From Thermoproteota archaeon (lineage in GTDB: Archaea > Korarchaeota > Korarchaeia > Korarchaeales > Korarchaeaceae), in assembly GCA_027061785.1 (NCBI GenBank), contig JAMOVA010000078.1, positions 1 through 36,756 on the forward strand: 36,756 nucleotides of DNA. The letters are read 5' to 3'. Positions 15,628 through 20,846 of this stretch are shown here, in pieces (positions within the stretch are counted from its first letter, which is position 1; each line of letters starts with the position of its first letter). A model generated the notes under the pieces. That model worked only from the letters and a program-made list of their open reading frames with translations, was not told where the DNA came from and did not search any database. The position numbers were made by a program, and so were the translations under genes.

Positions 15628-16068
15628 TCACCTGCTGGGCTTCTCCTTCTTACCCTGCAGTATCGCTTGCAGGGATACGCCGTTGACCTTTATCACCTTG
15701 TACCTGACTCCGGGTATATCTCCCATGGACCTGCCCCTGGAACCGCCGATGCCCTCGATTATCACCTCGTCGTGCTCATTGATCACGTTCAGAGCGCCGT
15801 CTCCCGGCGCAAACGCGGTGACTATGACTCCGTTCTTGGCTAACTGGACTTTGACCGCCTTCCTCAGCCCGGAGTGGGGTTGCCTCGCCTCGAGACCCAC
15901 CTTCTCCAGCACTATGCCCCTAGCCATGGGCGCACCCTCCAAGGGATCGAACTTCTCCTTCAGTCTGTACAGTCTCCTCCTGACCTTCCAGCTGTGAAGC
16001 CTCTTCTCCTTGTACTTCTCAGCTAGCCCTCGAGCAGCGTACAGTCCCAGTGGGGATTTCTTACCCAT
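15628..16068 (-). CDS. rps12: 30S ribosomal protein S12
   Basis: Decoding-centre protein of the small subunit. The 146-residue length is typical of the archaeal/eukaryotic (S23e) form. Visible marks are [20 protein letters not shown], the segment [20 protein letters not shown], and the conserved [20 protein letters not shown] near the end. It starts at ATG 16068, nine bases after the nusA stop, with a GAGGTGGTT Shine-Dalgarno-like stretch. It ends 4 bases before rps7. Confidence 0.97.
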
Positions 16069-16077
16069 GCAACCACC

Positions 16078-16548
16078 TCACGAGGTAGGGGTAGTCCATG
16101 TTGCTATTTTAATGTTGTCTATGTCGTACCACCTCTTGGCCAGCATTCTGGCCCTCTTTATCCTCCTGCCGTTCTTTCCTATCGCTATGCTCTTATCCTG
16201 TTCGACCACATAGGCGATAGCGACAGTCTCGTCTCCTTGCTTCACTATCCTGACCTTAGGCACCCTGGCCGGGCTCAGCAGATTGATCACGAAGCCCTCC
16301 GGAGTGTCGTCGAACTCCACGACCTCGATGGACATGTCCAAGTCCCCTCTCAAGAGGCGCCTCATGGTCTTCAGCTTCCTACCTCCCCTTCCAACCGCCC
16401 TTCCCAGGTCGCCCTTTTCCACCACGAAGATCAGCCTGTTCTCCTCCTTGTCCTCCACAACGTCCTTGGGCCTGACCCCGAGCATGTTGTGGAAGAGCTG
16501 TATGTAGCGGAACTGTTCAGGAGTTATGATGACCTTCCTACTCGGAAT
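16078..16548 (-). CDS. nusA: NusA-like transcription factor with KH domains, probable ATT start
   Basis: Archaeal NusA is two KH domains binding RNA, encoded between rpl30e and rps12 as here. Both KH loops are visible: GRAVGRGGRKLK and SIAIGKNGRRIK. The first ATG, at 16485, is too late. In-frame codons before it encode RKVIITPEQFRYIQLFHN, which matches the opening strand and helix of other archaeal NusA proteins. No ATG, GTG or TTG exists between the rpl30e stop and this segment. The codon ATT at 16548-16546 stands seven bases after a perfect GGAGGTG, so I place the start there (156 residues). If only canonical starts are allowed the product would be 135 residues and lack its first conserved elements. 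The family call is firm; the start is inference. Confidence 0.85.
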   Translation of the reverse strand: MPSRKVIITPEQFRYIQLFHNMLGVRPKDVVEDKEENRLIFVVEKGDLGRAVGRGGRKLKTMRRLLRGDLDMSIEVVEFDDTPEGFVINLLSPARVPKVRIVKQGDETVAIAYVVEQDKSIAIGKNGRRIKRARMLAKRWYDIDNIKIATWTTPTS

Positions 16549-16555
16549 CCCCCTA

Positions 16556-16562
16556 CACCTCC
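16556..16562 (-). promoter_or_regulatory. Strong ribosome-binding site for nusA
   Basis: GGAGGTG on the minus strand between the rpl30e stop and nusA. Seven bases separate it from ATT at 16548, while the first ATG is more than 70 bases away. This spacing decides the proposed nusA start. Confidence 0.7.
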
Positions 16563-16566
16563 ATGA

Positions 16567-16878
16567 TCACTCCACTCCTAGGACCTCTAAGATCCTAGAC
16601 TCACCCTCCTCCATCACCGCTGCTACTGAAACGAAGAAGGGCTTCTTAAAGGCCCTTCCCAGATCGATGGATTTGCCGGGATACCGGTAGACAGGTACAT
16701 TGGCCAGCTTAGCCAGGTACTCGACCTCCATCTTTACGTCAGGCGGCGCGTTGCTGGCGACTATCACCAACTTTGGATTCTCACCGGATTTCAGCTGCTT
16801 TATCACCCTCCTAGCGCCCAGTATCACATTTCCAGACTTGAGAGCTAGGTAAAGCTCAGGTTCGACTTCGCTGCTCAT
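16567..16878 (-). CDS. rpl30e: 50S ribosomal protein L30e
   Basis: L7Ae/L30e-family RNA-binding ribosomal protein, 103 residues. Family marks are LYLALKSGNVILGARRVIKQ, KLVIVASNAPPDVKMEVEYL, and NVPVYRYPGKSIDLGRAFKK. Its ATG overlaps the rpoA stop by four bases. In archaea L30e normally sits between rpoA2 and nusA, as here. Its reading frame is the same as that of nusA, and a single TGA separates them. Confidence 0.96.
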   Translation of the reverse strand: MSSEVEPELYLALKSGNVILGARRVIKQLKSGENPKLVIVASNAPPDVKMEVEYLAKLANVPVYRYPGKSIDLGRAFKKPFFVSVAAVMEEGESRILEVLGVE

Positions 16879-19800
16879 TCACCATCACCTCTACTGCTAC
16901 CGGGCGGGCTGAGATCCCACCTGACCGAAACCCTTCCCGTCCCTATTGGCGGGGTCTGTCCCATTATTAAAGCGTCTAGTGGCCCCACTATCGGATTATC
17001 CTCACCGCGCCTAGCGGTATTCAGGATGACGTGGGTAGTCCACTCGAAGGCCATCTTACTGAGAGGAGTCTTCATCTCGCTGAAGAACCCAGATGCAACC
17101 CCAGCAGCCTGCAACCTTATGGCCTCTATGGTGCCGGAGTAGGTCATCGTATCAGCCACTAGGGAGATGTACCTCCTATCAACTTCCAGACCCTGTTCCT
17201 CCAGTATGCGGGCCAGTTCCTTGAATATGCAGTTCCTAGCGGCCTCTATCCCCAGAACTTTCTCGATCTCCTTACAATCATTGGTTATCGTTTTAGATAC
17301 GTCGACGCAGCTCAGGTTGAGCACCTCAGCTAGGTTGGATCCCGTGGTCCTTATCACGTACTCCTTCTTACCGTTAACCTCCACGGTCTCGACCCACGCC
17401 CTCTTTATCCCCTTTATACCGGAGACCAGCTTATCCAGCACCCTGTACGACCAGGATCTAAGGGTCTGAAGGGGCTTATCCTTCTTAGCCGCCTCAAATA
17501 GCTCCACTATGACCTTATCGCCCTCTAAAGAGACCTCTCCCTTCATATTCTTGACGGCGCTCCTTATGTAGCTCACAAACTTGTCCAAGGTGATGAGGTT
17601 ACTCTCCAGAGCTCTCATGTCGGGTTTCAGTATGAGCCTGTAGCCGAAGTTGTCTATAGCGTACTCCTCTATCAGATCCCTTATCCTCAGCTCCCTGATG
17701 CTCCTTATCACCTTCCTTATCTTCACCTCATCGTCCTGACACTCGGGCTTGAGGTGTATCTCCATGGTGGGAGTACTCGTGGAAGCGTAGAACACGAGCT
17801 CCTTGAACCTCTCCACCCCGTGGGTCACGTCCATGGCCAGCAGTCCGGGTGCGTGGAAGGTCCTGAGAACCATCTGAGTGGTGGGCTCCGCTATGCTCTG
17901 GGCACTGATGAGACCTATTGGAGTCAAGACCTCGACCTTAGCTTGCTCGAAGCCCTCCTTCAGCTCCTCTATTATGGCCTTGAGCTCGGACTCCTTCGGC
18001 CTTGCCTCGTGTATCTTCTCCGCCAAGGCCGTCGGGAGCCCAGCCTCCCTCAGTGCCTCCTCTATCCTACTCTTGGAGACGCCCCTCTTCCTCTTGCCCT
18101 TCACATGCTTCTCTATTATCCTCTTGATGTTGACAGGCTCGTTCCTGAACAACTTGGTCGGATCATATCCATCACCGCCGAACCTGAACTGGAGGATGTG
18201 TCCCAACGAGTCTCTGACCGTTTCATCATAGGACACGTAGACGTCCTTGAGGGAGTTAGCCACCCTCCTGTAGAAGTACCCGCTGTCCTCTGTTCTCCTA
18301 CCCTTGTCTATGAGAGACTCCCTGCTGGACATGGCGTGGAATATGAACTCGACGGGGTTCAATCCCTTGACGTAACTGTTCCTCACGAACCCCCTCGCCT
18401 CAGGGCTCAGATCGCCCCTCTCGAAGTAGGAGAGCACCCTGTCCCTGTACCCCTTCCTGGGCCTGCCGCTGGTCAGCACGAATCCGATCCTCGTCTTGAT
18501 CTTCTGCTGCCCGACCTGACCCATTATCTGGGACAGGTTAGCTATCGAACCCCTGGCTCCGGTCTTGGCCATTATGGCCACATTGGATTTCGGATCGACG
18601 TACTTAGCGACGACATCGCTGACCTTGCTCCAGAAGCTATCTATCGTCTGAACTATATCGAATTCGAGCATTTGCTCCTCTCTCATCAATCTGAGGAGCT
18701 CTTCCTTGGTCCTGTAGATGGCGGCCTTTCTGATTATGGGCCTGCTCCTTATCAGCTCCATTACTTCCTCCTTGAGCTGGGAGTAGATGCCGTCTATCTC
18801 CTTGTAGGCTTCCTCAGGCATCATCAACTCCTTGGGCGAGGTGGTTATTCCGTAGAGCATGACCTCCTTGGCAGCTATCTTCAATAGCTTGTTGAGGAAG
18901 TCGGCGGCCACGTCATTACCGTAATCCCTTATGAGTACATCTATTATCGTGAGCTTCCCCTTAACGAGGGTGCCTACAACATCATCATCCAAGACCCCGG
19001 ATAGGAGCTGACCTTTCCTTATCAGCACGTACCCATCTCCGGGACAGGAGGGATCCTTGCACTCCACTCCCTTGGCTGACTTGGCCACGGACTCGAAGTC
19101 CAGATCCTTGGGGAGCAGCACAGATATGAGCTGCTTCCCGGTCCAGAGCTCTTTGGGCTTCTTTATGGCCGGTTCAGGAAGCTCGGTTATGCCAGCTCTA
19201 GCGAGAATCCTCGTAGCCTCCGACTTATCGAAGAGCGAGTCCTTCTTCGTTATCATGTACAGGACCGTTATGAGGTCCTGCCTCGCCCCCACGATGGAAC
19301 CTCCAGTCCTCGGGGAGAGCATGTTGTTCTTCACGCCCATCAGCTCCTTGGCCTCGATCGCCCCGTCGAGGAGCTGGGGCGCGTGGAGGTTCATCTCATC
19401 CCCATCGAAGTCTGCATTGTAAGGAACGCAGACAGCAGGATGAAGCCTGAACGTAGCGCCGGGCAGCACCTTCACCCTGTGCCCGAGCATGGAGAGCTTG
19501 TGCAGTGACGGCTGCCTGTTGAATATGACGTAGTCGCCATCCATCAGGTGCCTCTCTACAACGTCACCTGGCTCCAGCTGCTCGGCTACCTCCTTGAGCG
19601 CTTCCTTGCCCTTCCTCTGGATTATCTTCAGGCTCAATGGGGTGGCTCCACCTTTCCTCACGGTGTTGGCGCCGGGATACTCATCAGGCCCCCTCATGAC
19701 GAGCTCCTTGAGCTTCTCTATGTTGTTCTCATTGACGTACTCCGGAACGGTGAGGACCATGGCTATCTCCACCGGTACTCCGACCTCGTCTATGTCTATC

Positions 19801-20846
19801 ATAGGATCGGGGGAGATCACGGTCCTGCTGGAGAAGTTGACCCTCTTGCCTATGAGGTTCTTCCTGAGCCTCCCCTCCTTACCACTGAGCCTCTGGAAGA
19901 GGGATTTGAGGGGCCTCCTAGTCCCCTTCTGCGTGGCCACAGGCATGTTAGCGGCCGCGTTATTGAAGAACACGCTCACCCAGTATTGCAGGAGATCCCA
20001 CTCGCTCTCAACCATGCTGCTGGGAGCGCCTAGCCTCTTTGAGTTGTGGAGCTTTCTATTCACCTTAAGTATCTCCACTAGAATGTGCGTGAGATCGTCC
20101 TCGGATCTCTCACCGGTCTCCAAGTAGATTGAAGGTCTAACCGGGAGAGGAGGCACGAGTAACACGGTGAGGACAGTCCATTCTGGCCTGGCCCTCTCCG
20201 GGTTAAATCCTATAAGGAGAGAGTCATCATCACTAACTCTCTCGAGTATATCCCTTATCTCGGTAGGCCACAGCCTCCTAGGCTCCGGTTCCTTGACTAT
20301 GAACTTGTATACCTCCTCCAGCTCCACTCTCTGCACGTCCGCCCCACAGTGAGGGCACTTCTTGTGCTTCTTGGTGTACTTCTTCACCTCCTCCCTGACC
20401 TGCCTGACCAGCTCATCATCTATCTTCTTCAGGGGGTTCTTCTCAGCCACTTCCTTGGCCTTGGATATGAAGTAGGCTCTCTCCTCTTCAGGAAGAAGGA
20501 CCTTACCGCACTTGTGACAGACGGTGTTCAGGGCATCCTTTATCCTCTTAACGTAGCCTATGTGAACCACAGGCATCGCTAACTCTATCCTACCGAAGTG
20601 CCCGGGGCAGTTCTTCGGATAGTTCCCGCAGATGGGACACCTCTTCCTGGGATTTATCGTTCCGAGCCTGGGGTCCAGCACACCTCCTTGTACTGGTAGG
20701 CCGCCCTCATCGTAGGCGGTCGGCTCGGTTATCTCGATAAATCCTATCCTCCGTGCGTCAGACGGTGAGATGAGACCGAACATTACCTTTCTGAGGCTGT
20801 AGGGGATGGCCTCCTCATCAGTCACCGGTTCCCATATTAACGCCAT
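16875..20846 (-). CDS. rpoA: DNA-directed RNA polymerase subunit A, A' and A'' in one chain
   Basis: Largest catalytic RNAP subunit, 1323 residues. Most archaea encode it as separate A' (~880) and A'' (~390) genes; here one uninterrupted frame covers both. N-terminal zinc sites are RCPICGNYPKNCPGHFG (about 67-85), CHKCG and CPHCG. The catalytic Mg motif is NADFDGDEMNLHAPQ, with Asp479, 481 and 483. The bridge-helix region reads MSSRESLIDKGRRTEDSGYF and the trigger-loop region QSIAEPTTQMVLRTFHAPG (983-1001). Both differ from the usual family strings. The C-terminal A'' region runs to the end with MAFEWTTHVILNTARRGEDN. The start ATG has a good GGAGGTGAT ribosome-binding site. Confidence 0.97.
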   Translation of the reverse strand: MALIWEPVTDEEAIPYSLRKVMFGLISPSDARRIGFIEITEPTAYDEGGLPVQGGVLDPRLGTINPRKRCPICGNYPKNCPGHFGRIELAMPVVHIGYVKRIKDALNTVCHKCGKVLLPEEERAYFISKAKEVAEKNPLKKIDDELVRQVREEVKKYTKKHKKCPHCGADVQRVELEEVYKFIVKEPEPRRLWPTEIRDILERVSDDDSLLIGFNPERARPEWTVLTVLLVPPLPVRPSIYLETGERSEDDLTHILVEILKVNRKLHNSKRLGAPSSMVESEWDLLQYWVSVFFNNAAANMPVATQKGTRRPLKSLFQRLSGKEGRLRKNLIGKRVNFSSRTVISPDPMIDIDEVGVPVEIAMVLTVPEYVNENNIEKLKELVMRGPDEYPGANTVRKGGATPLSLKIIQRKGKEALKEVAEQLEPGDVVERHLMDGDYVIFNRQPSLHKLSMLGHRVKVLPGATFRLHPAVCVPYNADFDGDEMNLHAPQLLDGAIEAKELMGVKNNMLSPRTGGSIVGARQDLITVLYMITKKDSLFDKSEATRILARAGITELPEPAIKKPKELWTGKQLISVLLPKDLDFESVAKSAKGVECKDPSCPGDGYVLIRKGQLLSGVLDDDVVGTLVKGKLTIIDVLIRDYGNDVAADFLNKLLKIAAKEVMLYGITTSPKELMMPEEAYKEIDGIYSQLKEEVMELIRSRPIIRKAAIYRTKEELLRLMREEQMLEFDIVQTIDSFWSKVSDVVAKYVDPKSNVAIMAKTGARGSIANLSQIMGQVGQQKIKTRIGFVLTSGRPRKGYRDRVLSYFERGDLSPEARGFVRNSYVKGLNPVEFIFHAMSSRESLIDKGRRTEDSGYFYRRVANSLKDVYVSYDETVRDSLGHILQFRFGGDGYDPTKLFRNEPVNIKRIIEKHVKGKRKRGVSKSRIEEALREAGLPTALAEKIHEARPKESELKAIIEELKEGFEQAKVEVLTPIGLISAQSIAEPTTQMVLRTFHAPGLLAMDVTHGVERFKELVFYASTSTPTMEIHLKPECQDDEVKIRKVIRSIRELRIRDLIEEYAIDNFGYRLILKPDMRALESNLITLDKFVSYIRSAVKNMKGEVSLEGDKVIVELFEAAKKDKPLQTLRSWSYRVLDKLVSGIKGIKRAWVETVEVNGKKEYVIRTTGSNLAEVLNLSCVDVSKTITNDCKEIEKVLGIEAARNCIFKELARILEEQGLEVDRRYISLVADTMTYSGTIEAIRLQAAGVASGFFSEMKTPLSKMAFEWTTHVILNTARRGEDNPIVGPLDALIMGQTPPIGTGRVSVRWDLSPPGSSRGDGE

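Follow-up and report, generated by a model that had tools for sequence, protein, structure and literature searches.

In an archaeon of the Korarchaeum-like genus, which lies within the heat-loving Korarchaeia, the nusA reading frame can be followed upstream of its first ATG back to the stop codon of rpl30e, and this raises the question of where translation of the gene begins. The window, that is the whole stretch of DNA analysed (36,756 nucleotides), corresponds to contig C78 in a genome of 1.76 Mb whose source organism belongs to the Korarchaeum-like genus. Public relatives of the same genus or family comprise Thermoproteota MAGs and Candidatus Methanodesulfokora washburnensis, and one same-genus genome is a single contig of 1,590,757 bases. 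From knowledge of the archaeal RNA polymerase operon, the gene order on the minus strand is taken to be rpoB, rpoA, rpl30e, nusA, an rps12-like and an rps7-like gene; the identities of NusA (against the solved structure 2cxc) and of L30e (L7Ae/L30e family) were confirmed by comparison. RNA polymerase subunit A is encoded by one ORF rather than by split A' and A'' genes. The features of the locus are:

16875..20846, minus strand: upstream gene, presumably rpoA (name from general knowledge), a single 1323-aa ORF
16567..16878, minus strand: rpl30e, L7Ae/L30e family
16567..16569, minus strand: rpl30e TGA stop, in the nusA frame here, not in several relatives
16553..16564, minus strand: mini-ORF ATG GAG GTG TAG, out of the nusA frame, containing the Shine-Dalgarno sequence
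16556..16562, minus strand: Shine-Dalgarno sequence GGAGGTG, 7 nt 5' of ATT (genus spacing mode 5, mostly 4-8)
16546..16548, minus strand: proposed nusA start codon ATT (AT[T/A] in 15/15 aligned genus genomes and in L036; codon periodicity begins here)
16483..16485, minus strand: first in-frame nusA ATG, codon 22, without a Shine-Dalgarno sequence, rejected as start
16078..16548, minus strand: nusA reading frame, ATT through stop codon, encoding 156 aa with two KH domains
15628..16068, minus strand: downstream S12-like gene with an ATG start, presumably rps12 (name from general knowledge)

The evidence set out below makes it highly probable that nusA is translated from AUU, as one case of an apparently wider use of near-cognate starts in this genus. 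The minus strand reads GTG GAG TGA TCA TGG AGG TGT AGG GGG ATT CCG AGT AGG AAG GTC ATC ATA ACT CCT GAA CAG, and its nusA frame holds no ATG, GTG or TTG between the rpl30e TGA and the ATG at 16485-16483. The sequence-only reading had proposed an ATT start from this absence and from a perfect GGAGGTG seven bases before ATT, and had noted a frame common to rpl30e and nusA across the TGA; re-reading of the strand bore out all three observations, the motif lying at 16562-16556, exactly 7 nt away. The 16S 3' end of members of the genus carries GGATCACCTCC. GGAGGTG by itself is common in the window (18 found vs 9 expected), and the weight of the Shine-Dalgarno evidence rests on spacing and conservation, not on the rarity of the motif. 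The NTG GAG GTG TAG mini-ORF that overlies it is confined to the six closest species, among which the first base of its start varies; its translation was rejected on the ground of this narrow conservation, and it is probably a by-product of the Shine-Dalgarno sequence.

The nusA 5' ends of 15 aligned genus genomes (L002-L016) were compared together with that of L036, a sixteenth genome in which the gene lies at a contig edge. The column of the ATT is ATT in 12 of the 15 and ATA in the remaining three, and L036 reads ATG ATT, so that AT[T/A] stands there in all 16 genomes holding this end of the gene, with the Shine-Dalgarno sequence retained. The alignment of related 5' ends that had been suggested as a check thus lends strong support to ATT initiation, and on these sequences the ATT reading, with AUA in some relatives, is very likely correct. 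A sequencing error at the codon was rejected, the same start being found in independent assemblies. No ATG precedes the column in 12 of the 16 genomes, ten of which (L002-L011) have ATT; L014 reads ATA ATT, L015 AGA ATA, L012 ATG ATT, and L013 and L016 ATG ATA. In eight of the 16 (L002-L007, L010, L011) there is no ATG, GTG or TTG at all ahead of the conserved codon-22 ATG, and the lack of a usable standard start can, like the reading frame, be read from these genomes directly. The others carry a TTG in frame, two codons 5' of ATT and within the Shine-Dalgarno sequence (L008 and L009), a GTG at alignment position 7 (L014 and L015), or an ATG just before the column (L012, L013, L016 and L036); given these alternatives in L008, L009, L012-L016 and L036, ATT is not needed by every species.

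Spacing, counted from the final G of GGAGGTG up to the start codon, was measured in 114 and 110 Shine-Dalgarno-led genes of two genus genomes; it peaks at 5 and is mostly 4-8. The nusA ATT, at 7 nt in the source species and 5-7 in relatives, falls inside this usual range. The ATG of L012 would sit at spacing 2, a rare value, with ATT at 5; this ATG arises from the overlap with the rpl30e TGA; in L014, whose rpl30e stop is TAA, the codon is ATA. In L013 and L016 the ATG at spacing 5 is likely to be the start.

The codons that follow ATT have the character of coding sequence. For the stretch from the start to the first ATG, pairwise differences amounted to 0.146 (codon positions 1+2) and 0.443 (position 3), a pattern similar to that of the rest of nusA (0.061/0.512 and 0.169/0.517), whereas the eight codons upstream of the start gave 0.603 at positions 1+2 vs 0.544 at position 3. 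Third-position periodicity therefore begins right after ATT. The protein aligned with the solved Aeropyrum pernix NusA (PDB 2cxc) over residues 8-147, thus including the N-terminal segment; two KH domains are covered and the gene adjoins rpo and rps12 genes, as expected of archaeal NusA. The earlier claim that the conserved N-terminus is encoded upstream of the first ATG is upheld by this alignment from residue 8 and by the coding-type substitution.

Outside the genus, neither Methanodesulfokora (L049, the same gene as L019) nor L050 has a usable standard start near the NusA N-terminus; in both, a Shine-Dalgarno sequence places ATA of the same column at 5-6 nt, and a GTG five codons upstream in L050 is formed by the rpl30e stop and has no Shine-Dalgarno sequence. 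ATG, GTG or TTG lies close to the conserved N-terminus in 35 of 36 nusA loci of other archaea (L052-L087), the exception being the Methanomethylicota MAG L057, whose nusA is without a standard start (GAGGAGGGATAATTATACCC). The NusA tree was poorly resolved.

In the mechanism that we propose, it is chiefly the perfect Shine-Dalgarno sequence that would position the 30S subunit on nusA. A transfer of the subunit from rpl30e would probably contribute as well; the rpl30e stop stands 18 nt before ATT in the source species, and in the ATGATT, ATGATA and ATAATT forms it runs into the start region of nusA. Such placement could let initiator Met-tRNA begin at the near-cognate AUU, and in relatives at the ATT or ATA of the same column or sometimes at an ATG one codon earlier; the level of NusA might be affected as a result. 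The initiation factor aIF1 (SUI1), which in Sulfolobus helps to discriminate against non-canonical starts (PMC6237735), is encoded in 27 of 29 genomes examined from the phylum, that of the source organism included. A lineage devoid of aIF1 was accordingly rejected as an explanation, and any relaxed fidelity would not stem from its absence.

A survey of 800 kb from each of two genomes of the genus, covering about 630 conserved genes, yielded more cases in which conserved coding sequence reaches 5' of any standard start. The names of the surveyed genes are mostly presumed from general knowledge, except those with domain support. The orc1/cdc6 gene has ATA in both genomes, in G001 behind GGTGAT, and a saccharopine-dehydrogenase-like gene has ATT in both, a case that rests on these two genomes. 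A ferredoxin/ASKHA-type protein gene has ATC in one and ATA in the other, behind GGAGGTG. CTG stands against TTG or ATG of the relative in the genes for a crenactin-like protein, SHMT (again from two genomes), a GTPase, a Pop5-like protein and an ASCH protein; across the phylum, the actin homologue has CTG in two species (L257, L270) and TTG or ATG in most others. In the same phylum-wide comparison the gamma subunit of pyruvate oxidoreductase (POR; porG, L285-L298) has CTG in 11 members of the genus and TTG in 3, and ATG in sister genera. In-frame stops often occur shortly upstream of the start column of this gene. Kae1/TsaD showed GGAGGGGGATGTRCC-ATT in the two-genome survey, and among L229-L244 several species have no standard start, the conserved GGAGGGGGATGTRCC-ATT preceding the gene. 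The conserved DNA of Kae1/TsaD extends upstream of the Shine-Dalgarno sequence, perhaps as an overlapping RNA element. Kae1 makes t6A, the loss of which raises non-AUG initiation in yeast (PMC4717488), and its own near-cognate start could close a feedback loop via t6A.

Among genes lacking a standard start, near-cognates occupied 11 of 51 codons placed by a Shine-Dalgarno sequence (22%, vs 10.2% background, p=0.012), a modest enrichment that is support, not proof; a cruder tally of aligned codons was noisy, CTC being as frequent as CTG. The genes counted as relaxed in their start are nusA, POR gamma, the actin homologue, Kae1, orc1, the saccharopine-dehydrogenase-like gene and others. Tentatively, and with a probability that we would place a little short of even, these comparisons suggest a relaxed start-codon choice in Korarchaeia, aIF1 notwithstanding, with several CTG, ATT, ATA or ATC starts conserved over many species and roughly 1-2% of conserved genes concerned, a figure that is our own estimate from the above lists, some of whose entries were chosen by eye and which had no matched control pair; G033, from another archaeal family, proved too distant from the two korarchaeal genomes to be informative.

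Other readings of the nusA locus have to be set against AUU initiation. If NusA began at the internal ATG at 16485, the stretch before it being untranslated, one could understand why this methionine is conserved throughout the genus; the ATG has no Shine-Dalgarno sequence before it, the codons upstream evolve as coding sequence, and the conserved N-terminus that would be removed falls within the solved NusA fold and follows a normal start in other archaea, which leaves this reading very improbable. Hardly better placed is a start at some other near-cognate or upstream codon: AGG or AAG stands directly before ATT in L005, L006, L010 and L011, and the TTG of L008 and L009 could serve, but none of these is shared as AT[T/A] is, and the TTG overlaps the Shine-Dalgarno sequence. 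The sequence-only reading had offered TGA readthrough, giving an L30e-NusA fusion, as the alternative to ATT. The common frame of the source species recurs in L003, L006-L010 and L015; in L004, L005, L011-L014 and L016 rpl30e is out of frame with nusA, and a fusion is therefore excluded for the genus by these seven genomes. Together with a varying distance between the two genes, a further TAG in frame that precedes ATT by one or two codons in L007 and L010, and a linker devoid of coding periodicity, this makes readthrough the least credible reading of all.

The AUU start might, in addition, serve to regulate NusA specifically by feedback, in the way that AUU does for IF3 in Escherichia coli infC. 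The conservation of ATT across the genus in an operon of the transcription machinery and the infC precedent (PMC5472188) speak for it. Against it, NusA does not belong to the initiation factors, near-cognate starts occur in unrelated genes too, ATG is present in two subclades, and no special RNA structure was found at the nusA start region, which is not unusually structured (z -1.34); such a role thus seems unlikely. The product is a NusA-like KH protein and not a factor of initiation fidelity, so that nusA, although it might act in an infC-like way, does not belong to that type; a loop of the infC kind would require NusA to act on initiation. The earlier idea of an unusual translational control in the RNA polymerase operon is weakened as far as nusA alone is concerned, since CTG, ATT, ATA or ATC seem to serve as starts elsewhere in the genus.

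A search of the accessible literature found no paper on the start codons of Korarchaeota. Across 36 prokaryote groups, one AUG-to-AUU and two AUG-to-CUG switches were reconstructed among 61,358 ancestral AUG starts, on the basis of annotation (PMC5622118). If the AUU reading is true, a start other than AUG, GUG or UUG is conserved in an archaeal core gene, and archaeal initiation can be built around near-cognates. Gene callers would then shorten or overlook a number of genes of this lineage, a first-ATG call of nusA removing the first 21 codons, and the genus would offer a natural case of how aIF1, aIF1A, aIF2 and t6A set start-codon fidelity. The wider near-cognate use is a more interesting lead than nusA alone.

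Among known systems, the A. pernix NusA (2cxc) is a two-KH protein like that described here; the korarchaeal protein is ordinary and differs only in its start codon. Initiation led by a Shine-Dalgarno sequence in archaea (PMC7531240) agrees with the present case in that sequence, in the presence of aIF1 and in the short spacing, but the accessible part of that account names only AUG, GUG and UUG as archaeal starts, and here AUU, AUA and CUG are concerned. The GTC start of Streptomyces sigR (PMC5472188) is likewise that of a regulatory-machinery gene whose start codon was missed by annotation; sigR is bacterial, and its control by IF3 was demonstrated experimentally. The likeness to bacterial infC (IF3), with its AUU or AUC, lies in a conserved AUU-type start of an expression-machinery gene behind a Shine-Dalgarno sequence, whereas nusA is archaeal, is known here from its sequence, and encodes a transcription factor instead of a fidelity factor.
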